A stretch of DNA of 43,622 bases from Fimbriimonas sp. (GTDB taxonomy: Bacteria > Armatimonadota > Fimbriimonadia > Fimbriimonadales > Fimbriimonadaceae), in NCBI GenBank assembly GCA_031292555.1, contig JARLGV010000038.1, forward strand, positions 1 through 43,622, written 5' to 3'. Made by a program: the position numbers and the translations under genes. Positions 2,506-40,421 of the stretch are shown here, piece by piece. How positions within the stretch are numbered: position 1 is the first letter of the stretch; each line of letters opens with the position of its first letter. Below the pieces are notes generated by a model. It saw only the letters and a list, made by a program, of their open reading frames with translations, searched no databases and was not told where the DNA came from.

Positions 2506-3489
2506 TTGGAATCTAGATTGAAGTTTATCGAAGTGAAGGGGGATCATCCCAAGACGACCTTCTGCCAGGCGGTGGACGAGGGCCTGTCGGCGGCGCCCAA
2601 ATCGCTGCCCACTCTGTACTTGTACGACCATCGCGGCTCGGAACTGTTCGAAGAGATCACTTGCCTGCCCGAGTACTACCCGACGCGCACTGAGCAGTCG
2701 ATCCTCGAGCGAGTCTCGTCGGAGATTGTTGAAGCAGTAGGAGGCGACCTCATGATCGTCGAGTTCGGAAGCGGAAGTTCGACCAAGACGCGCCTTCTGC
2801 TTAGCGCCGCCCTCGACCGGCAGAGGAGCCTGCCATACGTGCCGATCGACATCTCGACCGAGTTTCTCAAGCAGACGTCGCTCACACTGCTTCGCGATTT
2901 TGACCGGCTGACCATCCAGGCAATGAGCGCCGAATATTTCGATGCCATCGCGGCCATGCCGGAGCACTCTGGCCCGCGCCTTATGCTCTTCCTGGGCAGC
3001 AATATCGGGAATCTGACCCATGAGGAGGCGACGTCCTTCCTCGCTCAGGTGCGAAGCCAGATGAAGCCGAAAGACCGAATTCTGATCGGAATCGACCTGG
3101 TGAAGGAGCGGACGATTCTCGAGGATGCCTACAACGACCGGCGGGGAGTGACCGCCGAATTCAACTTGAATCTGTTGCGCCGGATCAACCGAGAGTTGGA
3201 CGGCAACTTCGATTTGTCCGGCTTCTACCACAGCGCCCCGTACGACGAGCGGGAGCAACGGATCGAGATGAGGCTCTTCAGCTTGTCGCGTCAGATTGTC
3301 GATATCGACGGCACCGGAGGCGTGTACTCGTTCACTCCCGGAGAGTTCATCCATACCGAGTGGTCCCACAAGTACACCCTCGATTCCTTCCGCCGTCTTT
3401 GCCGCCCCGCCGGGTTGGAATTGGATGCGACGTGGCGAGACGAGCGAGACTGGTTTGCGATGATTCTGCTGAGGCCCGATGCGCCCTGA
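2506..3489 (+). CDS. egtD: EgtD: L-histidine N-alpha-methyltransferase (ergothioneine)
   Basis: The enzyme should trimethylate histidine with S-adenosylmethionine to hercynine, the first step of ergothioneine synthesis in the cytosol. The 327-residue length fits the family. Visible features are LPEYYPTRTE (Tyr57/58, histidine site), the SAM loop VEFGSGSSTKTR (~85-96), FLGSNIGN with Asn166, AYND with Tyr209, and HTEWSHKY with Glu285 and Ser287. These correspond to the histidine-binding residues Tyr56, Asn166, Tyr206, Glu282 and Ser284 described for the mycobacterial enzyme, as I recall them. The start is TTG with a strong ribosome binding site. The 3' end overlaps egtB by 11 bases, so the two are almost surely co-translated. 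Confidence 0.93.
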   Translation: MESRLKFIEVKGDHPKTTFCQAVDEGLSAAPKSLPTLYLYDHRGSELFEEITCLPEYYPTRTEQSILERVSSEIVEAVGGDLMIVEFGSGSSTKTRLLLSAALDRQRSLPYVPIDISTEFLKQTSLTLLRDFDRLTIQAMSAEYFDAIAAMPEHSGPRLMLFLGSNIGNLTHEEATSFLAQVRSQMKPKDRILIGIDLVKERTILEDAYNDRRGVTAEFNLNLLRRINRELDGNFDLSGFYHSAPYDEREQRIEMRLFSLSRQIVDIDGTGGVYSFTPGEFIHTEWSHKYTLDSFRRLCRPAGLELDATWRDERDWFAMILLRPDAP

Positions 3490-4783
3490 GACGGACCTTC
3501 GCAGGAAAGAGCTGCTTCGGGCGCTTGGCAAAACGCGAGACAAGACGCTCTGGCTGCTCGAACAGGTTCCGGATGAATTCTTGCGCCGCCGCGTCCACTC
3601 GTTCTACTCCCCAATCGGGTGGCACTTCGGCCACGTGGGCCGCACCGAGGAGTATTGGGTAATGTCCCGAGCGCTCGGCCAGTCCGTATTTGACGAGAAG
3701 TTGAGCTTCCTCTATGCCGACCTCGCGGAGAACCCGAAGGACAATCGTGTGAACATCCCCGGCCGAGAGGGCACGATCGAGTACCTACGGCAAACCCGCG
3801 AGCGGGTCTTGGGTGCGCTGAAGACGTGCGAATTCGAAGAAGATTCCCCTTTTCTGGCCGACGGATATGCCTGGGAATTCGCCCTCCAGCACGAGTGCCA
3901 GCACCAAGAAACGATCACGGAGATGCTGCAACTCATTCAAAAGCAGTTGCCCGTATCGCCGGTCGAACTCCCCGCCTGGCGAACTGACCACGAGACCAAC
4001 ATGATCGACATCCCAGGCGGGACGTTTCAAATGGGGTCGGATGACCTGCGCGGGTATGACAACGAGAAGGGCGCCCACGAGGTTCACGTCGATGACATTC
4101 GGCTTGCCTCACACCCAGTGACCGCAATCGAGTGGACGCAGTTCATGGAGGACGGCGGCTACCATCGCCCGGAACTATGGACCGCCGAGGGCTGGGCATG
4201 GCGGATCGCCGAACAAGCGAACTGCCCAGAATACTGGGTTCCCCAGAACGGTGGCTGGGTGTATTTCGCTCCACTCGGCGCACGCGCGATCCACCCCGAC
4301 GAACCGGCGATGTGCCTGAGTTGGTTCGAGGCGGATGCCTACGCACGATGGCGCGGAAAGCGCTTGCCGACCGAGGAAGAGTGGGAGTATGCCGCCGCCT
4401 ATGCAGGCTCTCGCCGAGAACCAAGCATGGTGCGCCGATTTCCATGGGGCGACACGCCACCGACTTGCGATCATGCATCGCACGCTTTGGATCGCTGGGC
4501 GCCCTCTCCAGTCGGAAGCCATCCATTGGGGGCCACGCCCCTCGGACTGGCCGACATGGCGGGAGGAGTTTGGGAATGGACCTCAAGCCGGTTCCTTCCC
4601 TACCCCAGATTCTCGGCCTTTCCCTACGACGGGTACTCCAAGGACCACATGCTCGGCGCACATCGCGTATGCCGAGGCGGATCCTGGGCGACCGCCGGGG
4701 CAATCCTTCGCTGTTCGTTTCGAAACTGGTATGTACCCACCTACCGACAGGGTCTCCTGGGTATGAGACTTGCCGAATTGTGA
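3479..4783 (+). CDS. egtB: EgtB-like hercynine sulfoxide synthase
   Basis: This non-haem iron enzyme should join hercynine to a thiol (gamma-glutamylcysteine or cysteine) using oxygen, giving the sulfoxide precursor of ergothioneine. An N-terminal DinB-like helical domain (~1-160) carries the iron ligands: His49 or His52 in GWHFGHVGRTEEYW, and His138 and His142 in the HxxxHQE motif QHECQHQETITEM. A formylglycine-generating-enzyme-like C-terminal domain starts near residue 173 (IDIPGGTFQMGSDD) and ends GLLGMRLAEL. The 434-residue length fits EgtB. The ATG overlaps the end of egtD by 11 bases. No egtA, egtC or egtE lies in the window, so the thiol donor is open. A cysteine-using (type II) EgtB is possible. 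Confidence 0.9.
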   Translation: MRPETDLRRKELLRALGKTRDKTLWLLEQVPDEFLRRRVHSFYSPIGWHFGHVGRTEEYWVMSRALGQSVFDEKLSFLYADLAENPKDNRVNIPGREGTIEYLRQTRERVLGALKTCEFEEDSPFLADGYAWEFALQHECQHQETITEMLQLIQKQLPVSPVELPAWRTDHETNMIDIPGGTFQMGSDDLRGYDNEKGAHEVHVDDIRLASHPVTAIEWTQFMEDGGYHRPELWTAEGWAWRIAEQANCPEYWVPQNGGWVYFAPLGARAIHPDEPAMCLSWFEADAYARWRGKRLPTEEEWEYAAAYAGSRREPSMVRRFPWGDTPPTCDHASHALDRWAPSPVGSHPLGATPLGLADMAGGVWEWTSSRFLPYPRFSAFPYDGYSKDHMLGAHRVCRGGSWATAGAILRCSFRNWYVPTYRQGLLGMRLAEL

Positions 4784-17690: not shown

Positions 17691-17774
17691 ACTAAGCGGA
17701 ACTTGCGGTCAACGGGATAATCTATCGTATTGAAGCGGCTAGGATGCGTATCCAGCCGCAAGGAGAAAAAGCGC

Positions 17775-20279
17775 ATGAAAGCCGTGGTAATGGCAGGTGG
17801 TGAAGGATCTCGCCTACGTCCCGTAACGACCAATCGCCCCAAACCGATGGTCCCCATCTGCAACCAGCCGATCATGGAGCACATCGTGACGCTCTTAAAG
17901 CGGCACGGAATGACGGAGATCGTATCTACACTGTATTACTTATCGGAAGAGATTCAGGGCTACTTCGGAGACGGCGAAGACTTCGGAATCAAGATGGATT
18001 ACAGCATCGAGACGACGCCGTTAGGAACTGCCGGTAGCGTCAAGAAAGCAGAGCACCTTCTCAAGGACGGCACCTTCATAATCGTTTCGGGAGATGCTCT
18101 TACCGACTGCGACCTAACGAAGGCGATCGAATTTCACAAGCGCAAAGGAAGTCTCGCTACCCTAATCCTCTACCGCGTTCCCAATCCACTCGAATTCGGC
18201 GTCGTCATCACCGACGAAGACGGCAAAGTTGTGCGCTTCCTGGAAAAGCCAAGCTGGTCGGAAGTGTTCTCAGATACCGTAAATACCGGCATGTATATTC
18301 TGGAACCCGAGATCTTCCAGTACATGGAGCCGAACAAGCAGTATGACTGGAGTGGCGACATCTTCCCACGCCTCTTGGCAGAAAGAAAGCCGATGTTCGG
18401 ATACATCATGGAAGAGTATTGGGCAGACGTAGGATCGCTAACCCAGTACCGCGAAGCCCAAGAGCATATGCTTGCCGGCAAGGTGAACCTGCCCGTCCAA
18501 GGACAGCCGATCGGCAACGGCGTATCCATCGGCCCGAATTGCGTCATCGACGAAGAGGCGAAACTCATTCCGCCGGTATGCCTTGGTCGCAACTGTAAGA
18601 TCAAGCGAGGCGCTACCGTCGGCCCGTTTTCGATCATCGGCGACAACTCGTTTGTCGAGGAAGACGCCAATGTCGAGCGGTCGGTTGTTTGGGATAGCGC
18701 CTATATTGGCCCAAATGTCGGGATTCACTCGGCGATTGTTTGCGGTCGAGCTACAGTCAAGCGCGATAGCGTCGTTCGCGAGGACGCCGTTATCGGCGAC
18801 CGATGTTTGGTAGACGTCGGTTGTACGATCCGTCCGAGAGTCAAGCTTTGGCCAGACAAGATTGTCGAACGCGGGTCGACGGTTACGATGTCGCTCGTGT
18901 GGGGCAGTAAGTGGCGGGGCAACCTTTTCCGCGAACTCGGTGTCGCCGGACTCAGCAACATCGAGATCACGCCCGATTTTGCCTGCCGCCTCGGCTCGGC
19001 GTTTGGGTCTTGTTTCCCTCCCGGATGCAAGATCGTCACGAGTCGGGACTCGACGCGCAGTTCACGAATGATCAAGCGGGCCATCATCGCGTCGCTCCTA
19101 AGCGTCGGTTGCGATGTGCTGGACATGCGCAGCGCAGCTCTGCCAATCGCCCGACACTTCATCAAGACGAGCGGCGCCGCCGGTGCGGTCAGCGTGCGCA
19201 AGCTGCCGGGCAACACGCGCGTCACGTTGATCGAAATGCTCGACTCGACAGGGTCATACCTCTCTCGAAGCCTCGAACGTAAGGTCGAAAGCGCCTTCTT
19301 CCGCGAGGACTTCAAGCGAACTGATCCGGATGACCTAGGACAGATCGAGTTTGCGAGCCGCGCGGTCGAAGAGTATCAGGCCGACTACTTCCGGCTGTTG
19401 AACAACGACACGCCGGTCAAACGGCTGAAGATCGTGTGCGACTATGGCTACTCATCGCTCGGTTCGATCTTCCCCGCGATGCTCGAACGACTAGGCGTAG
19501 AGTCGATCAGCCTCAACAGCTTCAATGACGCCAAGCGAGCCCCACGTTCGATTTCTGAGGTTGAACGGCACGTTCAGAATCTTGGTCAGATCGTCGGCAC
19601 TCTGGGTTACGACCTGGGCGTCCTCTTCACAGCGGAAGGCGAGCGACTCACGATCGTGGACGAACATGGCGAACAGGTTCAAGGCAACTCGCTCCTTGCG
19701 ACACTGGGAACGCTTGTGGCCAAGACGCACTCCGACGTCAAGATCGCCCTCAGCGTTACCGCCCCGACCCTTCTGGAGGAGACGCTGCGCAAGCAGGGCG
19801 CCGTTACGATCCGCACCAAGGCAGATGTCCGTTCGCTGATGAACACCAGCATGAACGAGCACGTGACTTTCGCAGGAGACGAATATGGCGGGTTTATCTT
19901 CCCGGAGATGCATCCAGGATTCGATGCTCCGTTCAGCCTCGGAATGCTCGTTTCGATGCTTCAGAAGACCGGCTTGTCGGTCAGCGAGGTCGCAAGCGAG
20001 TTACCAGTCTTCCAACTTGCCTACGAACAGGTTCGAGTTCCGTGGGAAGCGAAGGGCACGGTCATGCGACGCATCTCGGAAGAGGGCCAAGCCGGATCTC
20101 GCGTCGAGTTGCTCGATGGCATCAAGATCTACGATGGCGACTCTTGGGTGCTGGTGCTCCCCGATGCCTTGGAGCCGGTCTTCCACGTCTATGCCGAGAC
20201 CCCCGAGGTGGGCGCGAGCAAGTCGCTCGTCGGACGCTACGTGAAGAAGATAGAAGGGATGCTGGTCGTAGATAACTGA
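17775..20279 (+). CDS. Sugar nucleotidyltransferase fused to a degenerate phosphomannomutase
   Basis: The N-terminal ~235 residues are an NDP-sugar pyrophosphorylase, probably mannose-1-phosphate guanylyltransferase or glucose-1-phosphate type, with [10 protein letters not shown] (7-16) and the FLEKPSW loop. Residues ~250-370 are left-handed beta-helix hexapeptide repeats. The rest (~385-834) has the fold order of a phosphohexomutase but not its active site. The TASHNP phosphoserine loop is replaced by [13 protein letters not shown] and the DGDADR metal loop by TAEGERL, while [14 protein letters not shown] is kept. The second half is therefore probably not a mutase. ATG 17775 is supported by AAGGAG at 17760-17765; a TTG at 17730 is unlikely. 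Product length is 834 residues. It would feed nucleotide sugars to surface glycans. Confidence 0.9.
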
Positions 20280-31818: not shown

Positions 31819-33777
31819 TTAGTTGAGCGGCTCCGTATAGCACTCCGCGTTATCGACCGTCTCTCGGAACCAAAGTCCATCCGGGCATACGAGACGGAAC
31901 CACCATGCGCTCGGTCGCAGGTTCGCTTGAATCAGCCCCCGCGAGCAGATTATCGCCTGGCGGATCAACCGCAAGCGTTTCAGCTCAGCCTCGAACTCGA
32001 TCGACCGCCGCCGTTCGTGGATCCGCTGCACCTCTTCGTCCTGCAGAAGGGCGTTTTGCTTGTGCCTCAGATCGAGCATCCGGTTCTGAGCCTCGACTCC
32101 GCTATGGATGATCTTCTCGACCTCGTGGGTCAATCTCGACCGTTCCGCGACGTCGGCGGGAGTGTGGGGCTTGTCGAATATCTTCTCGCGGAAGTGGTCG
32201 CCCTTCTCACGCTCCGCCCTCAAACGCTCCGCTCGGAGTTTTCGGATTTCATCGTACAGCGCGTAGCGTTGCGAGCGAATCTCCTCGAGCGATCGTTGCA
32301 GGCTGCCTAAACTGGCGTGCAATCCCTCGTACTCGCGGGCAAGGCAGTTCCAAGAACCTCCCTGCGTCCGGTCAAGGAAACGAATGAGCTCGATCGGTCG
32401 CCTCAAACCGGCGAGGGTGGCCAGGAGCGACTCCTGCTCGTGGGCGACCTCCTTCCAGCGGCCGGAAAAGCTCGGAGCGCACATCTCCTCCGTACCGAAG
32501 GCTCGTTGGAACGGATCCGGCAACTTCATCCAGGAGCAGCAGACCTTCAGGGCGTCCCACGCATCGTACTTGACACGCAAGATCGGGTTCATCTTGATCG
32601 AGAAGCCCTTGTCCGCCAGCTTCCGGTGAAGCGCGCGGCTGTACTTCACATACGAACTGGCGCCTTCGTGGAAGACAAAGACGAACTCAGGCGCCAACAT
32701 CCCGATCAGAGTGACCGCCTTACCGACGAGCACACAGTCCGGGCCGAACTTCCGCTCAACAGCCTCCGCCAACTCAGAAATGGAGTTGAGCGGCTTCTTG
32801 AAAGTCAGGAATTGCGGTGTCGCCGTCATGATCACCGCTCCGCGCGTCCCCAGCCGAATCGTTCCACGGCCGTGCTCCGGAAGAATCAGGTCGAATGGAA
32901 TCGCCCCTGTTCCGAACCGGGCAAGTTCGTACAGACCGGATGAGCCTCGGATCGCCTCGTCATAAGCGGAACAAGCCACCGCGCGGGTGGCTTGATCGAC
33001 AAACAGATTCACGAGCTCGAATCGAGAGCTACAACATGTCGCAGCATTGAATCGAAGCAGTTCGCTGGTGGCGGTGGTCTCGATATCGACGGGCGCATTG
33101 GCGCAGAACTCATAGAAGATAGGCAGCAGTCGCTGGTAAAACTCCGAGACCGTCTGGGTCCGTGGCTCGGCGGCGTCGCAGACCTTGGCGCGCAAATCGT
33201 TGGCCAGTTCCTCGGCTTTCTGCCGTCCCATGCCGGAAAGCGACTGAAGGGTCGAATCGATCGCCCAGTCCATCGTCGACTGGCACACTTGAAAAAGCTG
33301 TTTGAGCTGAACGTCCTTGGTGATGGGAGCGTGTTCGTCGAGCGACACGATGCCTCGCCAGCCCCATGCCTCAGTGGCTTCGTCCATGAAAGTCGGCCGG
33401 GCGGCTCCCAGCTTGCCAATTCGCAGACCCGCTGCGTGGAGCATTTCGCGCGTGATGACGGTTTCGCTCCCGAAGAGGGTCGAGAACTCGCCGGCCGCGC
33501 TCCACAGCCCCTTGGTCGTGGTGTCGTTGTGAGGCAGCGCTTTGAATTGTCCGGCTTCGTGCTTGCCGCTGGGAAGCTTCGCGAAATAGTCCGTGTCGTG
33601 GACTCCTGCCACGAGGCGAATCGGAGATCCCAAGCGCCGGGCGGCAACCGCCAAGCCCGCTTTCATCGGTTCGTCCCAGAATACGGTCTGTCCCAACGCC
33701 AGCAGAGGCGCCCCCGGAGCTACCGTCGCAAGCTCGTGCAGCGCCGCATCAAGGCTCGATCTCTCCTTAACTGCCAT
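31819..33777 (-). CDS. Large protein of unknown family, coupled to dapF
   Basis: I do not recognise this 652-residue protein. It has no signal peptide or membrane helix, so it should be cytosolic. Striking segments are LALGQTVFWDEPMKAGL (~26-42) and AGVHDTDYFAKLPSGKH (~57-73) near the N-terminus. A mixed alpha/beta region follows (~290-470, with FDLILPEHGRGTIRLGTRG). A long charged helix with coiled-coil character runs ~495-625, and a Trp-rich end contains WWFRLVCPDGLWF. The N-terminal order GQ, then a HDxD-like segment, plus a C-terminal coiled coil loosely recalls BshC (bacillithiol synthesis), but the match is too weak to assign. Its stop abuts the dapF start, suggesting a shared expression unit and perhaps a shared amino-acid pathway. 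Confidence 0.8.
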   Translation of the reverse strand: MAVKERSSLDAALHELATVAPGAPLLALGQTVFWDEPMKAGLAVAARRLGSPIRLVAGVHDTDYFAKLPSGKHEAGQFKALPHNDTTTKGLWSAAGEFSTLFGSETVITREMLHAAGLRIGKLGAARPTFMDEATEAWGWRGIVSLDEHAPITKDVQLKQLFQVCQSTMDWAIDSTLQSLSGMGRQKAEELANDLRAKVCDAAEPRTQTVSEFYQRLLPIFYEFCANAPVDIETTATSELLRFNAATCCSSRFELVNLFVDQATRAVACSAYDEAIRGSSGLYELARFGTGAIPFDLILPEHGRGTIRLGTRGAVIMTATPQFLTFKKPLNSISELAEAVERKFGPDCVLVGKAVTLIGMLAPEFVFVFHEGASSYVKYSRALHRKLADKGFSIKMNPILRVKYDAWDALKVCCSWMKLPDPFQRAFGTEEMCAPSFSGRWKEVAHEQESLLATLAGLRRPIELIRFLDRTQGGSWNCLAREYEGLHASLGSLQRSLEEIRSQRYALYDEIRKLRAERLRAEREKGDHFREKIFDKPHTPADVAERSRLTHEVEKIIHSGVEAQNRMLDLRHKQNALLQDEEVQRIHERRRSIEFEAELKRLRLIRQAIICSRGLIQANLRPSAWWFRLVCPDGLWFRETVDNAECYTEPLN

Positions 33778-34370: not shown

Positions 34371-34427
34371 CCCAGCCGGCGGCTTGCGAGTCACCGGCTG
34401 GGCGTAGTCCGACGGAAGCCGGACTAC
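34371..34427 (-). other. Tandem perfect hairpins between two minus-strand genes
   Basis: GTAGTCCG (34404-34411) pairs with CGGACTAC (34420-34427), and CCCAGCCGG (34371-34379) pairs with CCGGCTGGG (34394-34402). Both stems are perfect (8 and 9 pairs). The first includes the stop codon of the DUF4139-like gene, and the second ends 13 bases before the thioesterase ATG. Neither is followed by a T-run. Confidence 0.55.
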
Positions 34428-35992
34428 TGCATCGATCGGACGTACAGGTTGTACTTGTACGTGATGGTCAGGACCTTGCCCGGCTCGATATCGGCGTTCC
34501 ACTCGAGCTTCATGCCCGGGTTCATCGATCGCAGGCCCTTGGTGGTCTTCACGACAGTCGGGTTTCCGGTCATCGCGACCATGTCGCCCGTGAGTTCCTT
34601 CTTGATCCGCAGGTGGACTTTGACGGCCTTGTAGTTGGCGATACGGAGATCTCCTTGGATCGTCACCAGATCGTAGAGGGGGTAGTTGCCAGGGTTCTTG
34701 ATCGCGCCGCGCTGACGATTCAGTTCCGACTCGCTCGCCTCGGCATGAACGTCCAGCGCCTTGGTGATTTTGACTTCGGCCATGGATGTCGCCGTCGTGT
34801 AGTGCATGGCGTCCTGTCCGAGAATCTGTCCATTCTTGAAGATGGTTGCCACCGCCGTCGTGAACGGCTCGCCGCTCGTGTTCTTGAACCTCAGAGAATG
34901 CCAAACGTCCACCGGTCCATCGGGAAGGCCTGTGTACTCGATATTGTTCACGGTGCCATCCGGCAGGTCCCAGGTGTAGATCTCCTCGAACGGCGCGGCA
35001 GCGCTAAAGAGAATCTGGTAAGTTCGGTCCCCCTTCTTCGCCGTGACATTGGGCAGCTTGTAGAAGAACAGGTCCTCCATCTGCCCGCCTAGAAGAAGCG
35101 AGTTGTTCATCGACTCGGCAAAATCCCCGTTCATGACCAACGAGTTCGTGGCCATCCGCGACTGGCCCTGCCCGCCGAAGCCGCTGGAGCGGCGATTGAT
35201 CGTGACCGCATTGGGATCGCCGATGCCCTCCAGCATCGAAGCGAATTCGTTCACCGTTCCTCCGTTGATCAACGGGTCGAGATAGGTGGAGAACGGTACG
35301 TTCGGAAATCCCGTCACGAAGCGCGCCTCGACGTTCTTCAGGTCCTCGATGTCGTCCATGACGGTGGCCTTGCCAATAATCGACAATTTCTTGGGATCCG
35401 AGATGTCGATCGCATAGGCGGGAGCCCACGTCAGGCCGCGCTCAAGCGAAATCATGTGGACGCTGCCGGGCTTTCCCGACACCTCGACCCGAAGCACCCG
35501 GTTCGTCTTGACAACATCGGTTTTGTAAAGGAGTTGACCCGATACGGAGGCCATGCTTGTCACTTGCGATTTGGACACCGCAAAGGTCGACGTGGCGGTC
35601 TGAAGAAGCAGAAAATCGCTTCCGGCCAACAACAGCTTCCCTTCCTGGATCTGACCGAGATTCTGATCGCCGCTTCTGATTCCAATGCGGACTTCGTGTC
35701 CCACGTTGGCATTCATGATCCCTTCGAGACTCGATAGATCGGTTTTCACGTTGGTCGAAACTTCGGTGACCCGGACGTCGTCGAGTTTGGTGCCATCGCT
35801 GGCGGTGAACCAAAGCGTCCCCATCGAACTTGAAGGGATCTTCTCGATCGTATAGGTTCCCGGAGCCGGAGCGTCAAATTCGCGGCTGACGACGGCAAAG
35901 CCGTTCTTGAAGAGCGATGCCGCCACGATATGCGGTTCAACCGCCTTGGTAGTGACGGATACAAGACAATGGGCTACTAAAAGCGTCAACAT
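34424..35992 (-). CDS. Secreted DUF4139-like protein
   Basis: The 522-residue protein has an N-terminal signal-like segment (MLTLLVAHCLVSV) and resembles DUF4139-domain (mucoidy inhibitor A-like) proteins. The start AASLFKNGFAVVSREF fits the family's opening strand. LERGLTWAPAYAIDISD (~183-199) and ATVMDDIEDLKNVEARFVTG (~210-229) match the family core, and the C-terminal strands end ITYKYNLYVRSMQ. A Gly/Ser-rich insertion near ~265-300 is low in complexity. The role is unknown; an outer-surface or periplasmic place is likely. It is divergent from the TspO-like gene and is the first gene of the run down to dapF. Confidence 0.8.
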   Translation of the reverse strand: MLTLLVAHCLVSVTTKAVEPHIVAASLFKNGFAVVSREFDAPAPGTYTIEKIPSSSMGTLWFTASDGTKLDDVRVTEVSTNVKTDLSSLEGIMNANVGHEVRIGIRSGDQNLGQIQEGKLLLAGSDFLLLQTATSTFAVSKSQVTSMASVSGQLLYKTDVVKTNRVLRVEVSGKPGSVHMISLERGLTWAPAYAIDISDPKKLSIIGKATVMDDIEDLKNVEARFVTGFPNVPFSTYLDPLINGGTVNEFASMLEGIGDPNAVTINRRSSGFGGQGQSRMATNSLVMNGDFAESMNNSLLLGGQMEDLFFYKLPNVTAKKGDRTYQILFSAAAPFEEIYTWDLPDGTVNNIEYTGLPDGPVDVWHSLRFKNTSGEPFTTAVATIFKNGQILGQDAMHYTTATSMAEVKITKALDVHAEASESELNRQRGAIKNPGNYPLYDLVTIQGDLRIANYKAVKVHLRIKKELTGDMVAMTGNPTVVKTTKGLRSMNPGMKLEWNADIEPGKVLTITYKYNLYVRSMQ

Positions 35993-39320: not shown

Positions 39321-40421
39321 CTAGGTATCGCGATATCGGTGGAGCAAATCTGGCCAGGACCCTTCCTCGATCGCCTGGCGGATCTCGCGCATCAGTCGCG
39401 CGTAGAAGTTGAGGTTATGGAGGGTCGCCAATCGGGCGCCAAGCGGTTCGCCCGCCTTGAACAGGTGGCGAACGTAAGCGGCCGAGTAGCGCTCGGTCTC
39501 CGGAAACACCGACCCCTCGTCGAACGGCCCCTGATGGTCATGCCACCGCTTTCCAAGAGCGTTTACCCGCCCAAACAGGGTGTACAGCGCATGGTGCCGC
39601 GCCATTCGGGTCGGGAGAACGCAGTCGAACATATCGATTCCGTGCGACACCGCATGAAGGATGTCTTTGGGGTGCCCAACGCCCATTAGGTAGCGCGGAC
39701 GATCCGTTGGAAGGAGCTTTGCCGCGTATGCCACTACCGGATACTGCATCTCGGTCGGTTCGCCGACGCTGACGCCTCCAATCGCAAAGCCCTCGAACGG
39801 CAAGGATGAGATATATGCGGCCGATTCGGCCCGCAGGTCCTCATGGACTCCGCCCTGAACGATGCCGAACACCGCCTGATTTTCGCGTCTGGCGCTAAGG
39901 TTGCGTGGCGCCCATAGGTGGGTCCGACGCATCGCCTCGGCCGCTTCGTCGCGTGAGCAAGGGTAGGGCGGACACACGTCAAGGGCCATGCTGATATCGA
40001 CGCCAAGTTCGCCCTGAATCTCGATCGACCGCTCCGGCGACAGGAACTGGACCGAGCCGTCCAGGTGAGACTTGAATTTCACGCCCGAATCGTCGAGCGT
40101 GCGCGAGTCCGACAGGCTCATGACCTGATAGCCTCCGCTATCCGTGAGGATCGTTCCCTTCCAGGACATGAACCGGTGCAGCCCGCCGAAACTCTCGATC
40201 AGCTTCGAACCGGGCCGAAGTGACAGATGGTACGTATTCGAAAGCACCTGCTCGTAGCCCATCGCCTCAAGGTCTTCCGAACCGACCGTCTTGACCGACG
40301 CCTGGGTGCCGACTGGCATAAAGAACGGCGTTTCAACCGTTCCGTGGGGGGTGTGGAGTCGACCTCGTCGTGCCCCGGTATGCGGGCAGGTCGCCAGATG
40401 CTCGAATCGGATACTGCCCAT
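39321..40421 (-). CDS. tgt: tRNA-guanine transglycosylase lacking the zinc cysteines
   Basis: Tgt exchanges guanine-34 of certain tRNAs for preQ1 on the path to queuosine. The 366-residue protein keeps the catalytic residues: Asp94 in TDSGGYQVMSL, Asp148 in ALDVCPPYP, GGVSVGE (215-221) for base recognition and the nucleophile Asp266 in FDCVLPTR. The C-terminal zinc site is gone: where E. coli Tgt has CxCxxC, this protein has SVFPET (304-309), with only the later His335 (TLHNLNFY) left. The spacing is unchanged, so this is not a frameshift. No queA, queG or preQ1 gene is nearby. It lies between the acetyltransferase and GH57 genes with 35-base gaps on each side. Confidence 0.93.
   Translation of the reverse strand: MGSIRFEHLATCPHTGARRGRLHTPHGTVETPFFMPVGTQASVKTVGSEDLEAMGYEQVLSNTYHLSLRPGSKLIESFGGLHRFMSWKGTILTDSGGYQVMSLSDSRTLDDSGVKFKSHLDGSVQFLSPERSIEIQGELGVDISMALDVCPPYPCSRDEAAEAMRRTHLWAPRNLSARRENQAVFGIVQGGVHEDLRAESAAYISSLPFEGFAIGGVSVGEPTEMQYPVVAYAAKLLPTDRPRYLMGVGHPKDILHAVSHGIDMFDCVLPTRMARHHALYTLFGRVNALGKRWHDHQGPFDEGSVFPETERYSAAYVRHLFKAGEPLGARLATLHNLNFYARLMREIRQAIEEGSWPDLLHRYRDT

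Follow-up and report, generated by a model that had tools for sequence, protein, structure and literature searches.

The sole tRNA-guanine(34) transglycosylase (Tgt) encoded by the genome of Fimbriimonas sp. has lost the three cysteines of its structural zinc site and has kept its catalytic residues. With a probability of roughly 85%, we regard it as a most likely working, preQ1-inserting enzyme whose zinc was lost in a single event before Fimbriimonadaceae and one sister family diverged, and whose zinc subdomain, inherited vertically since, would be packed without a metal. The gene was found in a stretch of 43,622 nucleotides (contig JARLGV010000038.1; the window), where it is read from 40421 to 39321; the plus-strand reading of the same interval contains stops. 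The positions that are relevant for the following are:

39321..40421, minus strand: complete tgt ORF for tRNA-guanine(34) transglycosylase (366 aa), without a second copy in the genome
39495..39512, minus strand: former CxCxxC zinc motif, codons 304-309 (SVFPET), now Ser304/Phe306/Thr309; position computed from the start at 40421
39417..39419, minus strand: the fourth zinc ligand His335, still present (codon 335; His349 in Z. mobilis)
39624..39626, minus strand: intact catalytic nucleophile Asp266 (codon 266; Asp280 in Z. mobilis)
40140..40142, minus strand: intact general acid/base Asp94 (codon 94; Asp102 in Z. mobilis)

The protein is matched by the Pfam family TGT (PF01702) at residues 16-363 with 462.7 bits and, over its full length, by the NCBIfam equivalog Q_tRNA_tgt (TIGR00430) with 436.2 bits at a cut-off of 306.75. 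Its nearest named relatives are from Fimbriimonadaceae and other MAGs of Armatimonadota. A sequence-only reading of the gene had described a Tgt in which the three cysteines are replaced by Ser304, Phe306 and Thr309 at unchanged length. The alignment to Z. mobilis Tgt confirms this; it is gap-free, and Cys318, Cys320 and Cys323 of Z. mobilis correspond to Ser304, Phe306 and Thr309. Instead of the motif CxCxxC plus His that is usual for TIGR00430, S-F-T plus His is found; the retained ligand His335 had been passed over. The residue numbers given for Asp94, Asp148 and Asp266 are likewise correct, and all three aspartates are intact, as is the GGVSVGE loop at residues 215-221. Across the genome as a whole (G000; 140 contigs with a total of 6.46 Mb, 100% completeness), the TGT-family search yielded the gene of the window as its single match. 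The second, zinc-type Tgt that had been named as a possible objection was not found by this search.

The immediate neighbours of tgt code for a GH57 glucan-branching-type enzyme, a GNAT acetyltransferase and a class-V aminotransferase (probably SerC); no queuosine gene is among them, and no Rfam matches were obtained in the window. Elsewhere in the window, a fusion of a nucleotidyltransferase with hexapeptide repeats and a phosphomannomutase/phosphoglucomutase is encoded at 17730-20279 (+), and a protein with a DinB_2 and an FGE-sulfatase domain, i.e. of EgtB-type architecture, at 3479-4783 (+). Two long ORFs of 652 and 522 aa at 31819-33777 (-) and 34424-35992 (-) have no Pfam match at E 0.001.

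The distribution of the zinc ligands was determined for Fimbriimonadaceae (f1), one sister family of the same order (f2), and other families of the order (f3, f4, f5). The triad of cysteines is absent from 48 of 48 distinct Tgts of f1 and from 6 of 6 of f2. The comparison with related genomes, which had been proposed as a check, thus reveals a lineage-wide loss (every one of the 54 distinct Tgts from both families), and the same state in independent assemblies rules out chance and a sequencing error. In these 54 sequences, position 304 is occupied by Ser (52) or Asp (2), Phe306 and His335 are both invariant, and position 309 contains Thr, Leu, Val, Cys, Ser or Asn. The remaining 111 distinct Tgts of the same alignment, which were drawn from f3, f4 and f5 (13 sequences), other Armatimonadota and other phyla, all possess the CCCH ligand set. 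In a tree calculated without the motif columns, one change suffices to explain this pattern; the zinc-less clade has an SH-aLRT value of 98 and is nested within the zinc-type families f3, f5 and f4, which is also the case in a second tree. The single change and the nesting indicate that the loss of zinc is derived, occurred once, and was inherited vertically within the order; the tree places it at the base of f1 and f2. The orthology of the zinc-less enzymes follows from the tree and from the single copy.

Two other candidates were rejected during this survey. A partial loss (third Cys) in the distant Armatimonadota family f43 and in the Clostridia MAG L080 had been suggested by pairwise tblastn; the raw sequences and the multiple alignment show that CxCxxC is intact there, with an insertion or a shift of one residue. 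Second Tgt genes in the genomes G074 (L439, contig C25) and G002 (L440, contig C413) might have been zinc-type paralogues; they are likely located on contaminant contigs. Both genomes are fragmented MAGs that are 73-75% complete, the extra Tgts are closest to those from other phyla or distant families, and the GC content deviates in G074. In nearly all other genomes of the family, Tgt is single-copy.

The remaining enzymes of queuosine synthesis were identified in the Fimbriimonas genome G000 at the following loci:

C35:68292-69287: QueA
C140:11309-11539: QueF
C120:7768-8697: QueG
C119:32421-33065: QueC

In the 34 genomes of f1-f5, QueA is present throughout and QueF in 32; QueG-type matches were obtained for all 34, 32 of them over the cut-off. 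The f3 genome G174 (94% complete) has matches for QueA, QueF and QueG and no match for Tgt, which is due either to an assembly gap or to a real absence. Moreover, tRNA-Asp, -Asn, -His and -Tyr of G000 all contain the sequence C32-U33-G34-U35. The UGU context of the anticodon loop is what a bacterial Tgt reads. Thus, the search for QueA, QueF, QueG and substrate tRNAs recommended beforehand was successful, and companion genes and G34 tRNAs are those that accompany a bacterial Tgt. QueC, a zinc enzyme of this pathway, keeps its four-Cys zinc motif at 21 loci in genomes from f1 and f2; the loss in Tgt is therefore not part of a general abandonment of zinc.

A structural model was generated with AlphaFold2 from a 54-row alignment. 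Its pLDDT is 94, with a mean of 94 for residues 301-310 and values of 94-98 for residues 291-320, which overlap the region 296-340 for which a prediction had been suggested. The (beta/alpha)8 barrel of known Tgt structures is reproduced. Among solved structures, T. maritima Tgt (2ash) matches the model best, with a Z score of 52.7 and an rmsd of 1.2 A over 358 residues; entries from Z. mobilis rank next with an rmsd of about 1.6, and the TM values to known Tgt structures are 0.94-0.96. In a model of the zinc-type control L067, residues 307-311 form a short helix, whereas the same loop is a coil in the zinc-less model; AlphaFold2 models contain no metals. A conserved new cluster of Cys or His residues was not found at positions 288-339 of the 54 Tgts from f1 and f2. 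Phe306 is invariant and residue 309 is hydrophobic or small; for this reason, both side chains probably pack against the helix that carries His335.

The residues required for catalysis and base recognition resemble those of standard bacterial Tgt. This applies to C150, Q189, G216, V219, E221 and M246 of the preQ1 pocket, to the nucleophile D266, and to the arginines R272 and R275. In Z. mobilis numbering, the catalytic aspartates D102 and D280 and the pocket residues D156, C158, Q203, G230, V233 and E235 are those of a bacterial Tgt, and R286, R289, Y330, H333 and E339 are kept as well, so that catalytic, base-pocket and dimer-interface positions are all represented. Across the clade, the positions that form the pocket, contact the tRNA or line the dimer interface are unchanged with one exception: the Fimbriimonad MAG sequence L051 891-1973 contains a His at the base-recognition residue Asp148 (Z. 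mobilis Asp156), which is either real or a sequencing error. The dN/dS values of seven close pairs within the clade are 0.026-0.049 (NG86), which indicates that tgt is functional. Pocket, pathway and selection argue for an ordinary preQ1-inserting Tgt and against a changed substrate or a relic.

It had been proposed that the enzyme might act on a changed base or substrate, and the clade-specific barrel residues M101, V141, Q226, H256 and M273 are in line with a different base or nucleic acid as substrate, which would have freed the zinc subdomain from constraint. This proposal is unsupported by the standard pocket and by the presence of QueC, and we consider it very improbable: QueF, QueA, QueG and the UGU anticodon loops are retained, and the equivalog score is well above the cut-off. 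Furthermore, the enlarged queuine pocket (Val233 to Gly, Cys158 to Val in Z. mobilis numbering) is absent, V219 and C150 being kept in 54 of 54 sequences; Tgts of the eukaryotic queuine type contain Val and Gly at positions 158 and 233 (PMC3660597). It is barely credible that the gene is inactive or decaying and that the genome relies on another enzyme. Nothing specific speaks for this apart from the second Tgt-like genes in the fragmented genomes G074 and G002, which look like contaminants, and both the dN/dS values of 0.03-0.05 and the single copy in its own and nearly all other family genomes contradict it.

The invariant His335 counts against a zinc-free enzyme, as it might belong to a residual or different metal site. 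Such a new site would combine His335 with non-Cys ligands such as Asp/Glu295, His296, Asp301 or Glu310. It is compatible with the conservation of His335 in all 54 sequences, with an acidic residue or Asn at position 301 in all of them, and with an acidic residue at position 295 in 93%. However, Asp301 is common in zinc-type Tgts too, His296 (37/54) and Glu310 (39/54) are not conserved, and the former ligand positions are now occupied by an invariant Phe and by Thr, Leu or Val, which favours packing over coordination. We therefore judge a new metal site to be improbable. The zinc-free interpretation offered previously is in turn well supported by the lineage-wide loss, strong purifying selection, the sole Tgt, and the lack of a replacement Cys/His cluster. 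We infer from sequences and model a clade-wide variant within the known Tgt family that binds no metal, is packed by Phe306, and is active.

According to this metal-free reading, the enzyme would exchange G34 for preQ1 in tRNA-Asp, -Asn, -His and -Tyr, and QueA and then QueG would complete queuosine. The C-terminal subdomain would retain its fold, its position and its dimer-interface residues in the absence of zinc, and Ser304, the conserved Phe306 and the small or hydrophobic residue 309 would pack against the His335 helix in place of the metal. This state would go back to a single event in the ancestor shared by Fimbriimonadaceae and the sister family, and would have been passed on vertically.

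The premise that the zinc site is very conserved in the family holds for the 111 CCCH sequences mentioned above and has to be softened, because Planctomycetota lost the site several times. A total of 392 genomes from this phylum were searched. Of the Tgt sequences examined (145, with L268-like ones over-represented), 18 lack CxCxxC. In addition to L268 (see below), the following ligand sets were observed in Tgts from Planctomycetota:

L289-L297: C-S-S-H or I-S-S-H
L316-L319: S-P-A-H
L322, L325: S-E-R-Q, the His ligand being lost too
L385, L410, L413: three further Tgts without CxCxxC, two of which look partial

The catalytic aspartates are retained in those zinc-less sequences that were aligned. 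In a joint tree, four changes are required, of which at least three are unavoidable given its well supported branches; one loss may account for both L268 and the C-S-S-H group (AU p 0.89). The two cases that were inspected, the zinc-less tgt genes of L419 and L421, are located upstream of secDF, which is the neighbourhood of an orthologous gene. L268 (1001-2119) itself is a G-T-G-H Tgt on an IMG/VR contig; it lies beside a prophage in a bacterial tgt-secD neighbourhood. Viral contigs contained only few Tgts, at least one of which is bacterial sequence flanking a prophage. The losses in Planctomycetota signify that the zinc site is evolutionarily dispensable and that the enzyme tolerates its loss. 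Judged by these sequences, the site is commonly present in bacterial Tgt without being obligatory, and the Fimbriimonad case is one of several losses, with the widest and cleanest fixation among those seen here.

It is conceivable, albeit doubtful, that zinc in an ordinary Tgt ties queuosine formation to the zinc or redox state of the cell, and that these lineages were selected to cut this tie, repeatedly and convergently, by means of a metal-free packed knuckle. The clade-wide loss with retained catalytic residues and the separate losses in Planctomycetota suggest that Tgt can dispense with its metal. Sister enzymes with and without zinc constitute a natural experiment on the role of the metal in stability, dimerisation and tRNA binding, and the latter are candidate metal-independent Tgts for RNA-labelling applications. 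What speaks against a working zinc-free enzyme is that the zinc ligands of E. coli Tgt reportedly matter for activity, as the ligand mutants of Chong et al. from 1995 are said to be impaired. In an open-access library, no earlier description of a zinc-free Tgt was found, nor any paper that treats queuosine, Tgt or zinc in Fimbriimonadales or Planctomycetes.

Compared to the bacterial enzymes from Z. mobilis (1pud) and T. maritima (2ash), the Fimbriimonad Tgt is alike in its full-length fold (rmsd of 1.2-1.6 A to the model), the catalytic Asp pair, the preQ1 pocket, the dimer interface and the His ligand; it differs in that the three Cys ligands are replaced by Ser, Phe and Thr/Leu/Val. The zinc-less Tgts from Planctomycetota (L316-L319, L322, L325, L268, L289-L297) have also lost CxCxxC and kept the catalytic Asp, but these are separate losses with other replacements, and some keep one Cys. 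A related situation is known from an unrelated protein: bacterial GluRS is likewise a tRNA enzyme whose zinc motif was lost in some bacteria, and fold and function persist by alternative side-chain packing (PMC4381286). For GluRS this was tested experimentally, whereas it is deduced for Tgt; the zinc-binding subdomain of GluRS is locked by other side-chain contacts, which is why the zinc proved dispensable there, and it was called rare for zinc to be lost inside a family (PMC4381286). TGTs have been described as having two structural hallmarks, one of which is zinc (PMC6165067). The eukaryotic proteins QTRT1 and QTRT2 share the TGT fold and the C-terminal zinc subdomain with bacterial Tgt and, unlike the Fimbriimonad enzyme, both retain the zinc ligands (PMC4425180, PMC6165067). 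QTRT2, which has lost catalysis and kept zinc (PMC4425180), is the reverse of the Fimbriimonad Tgt.
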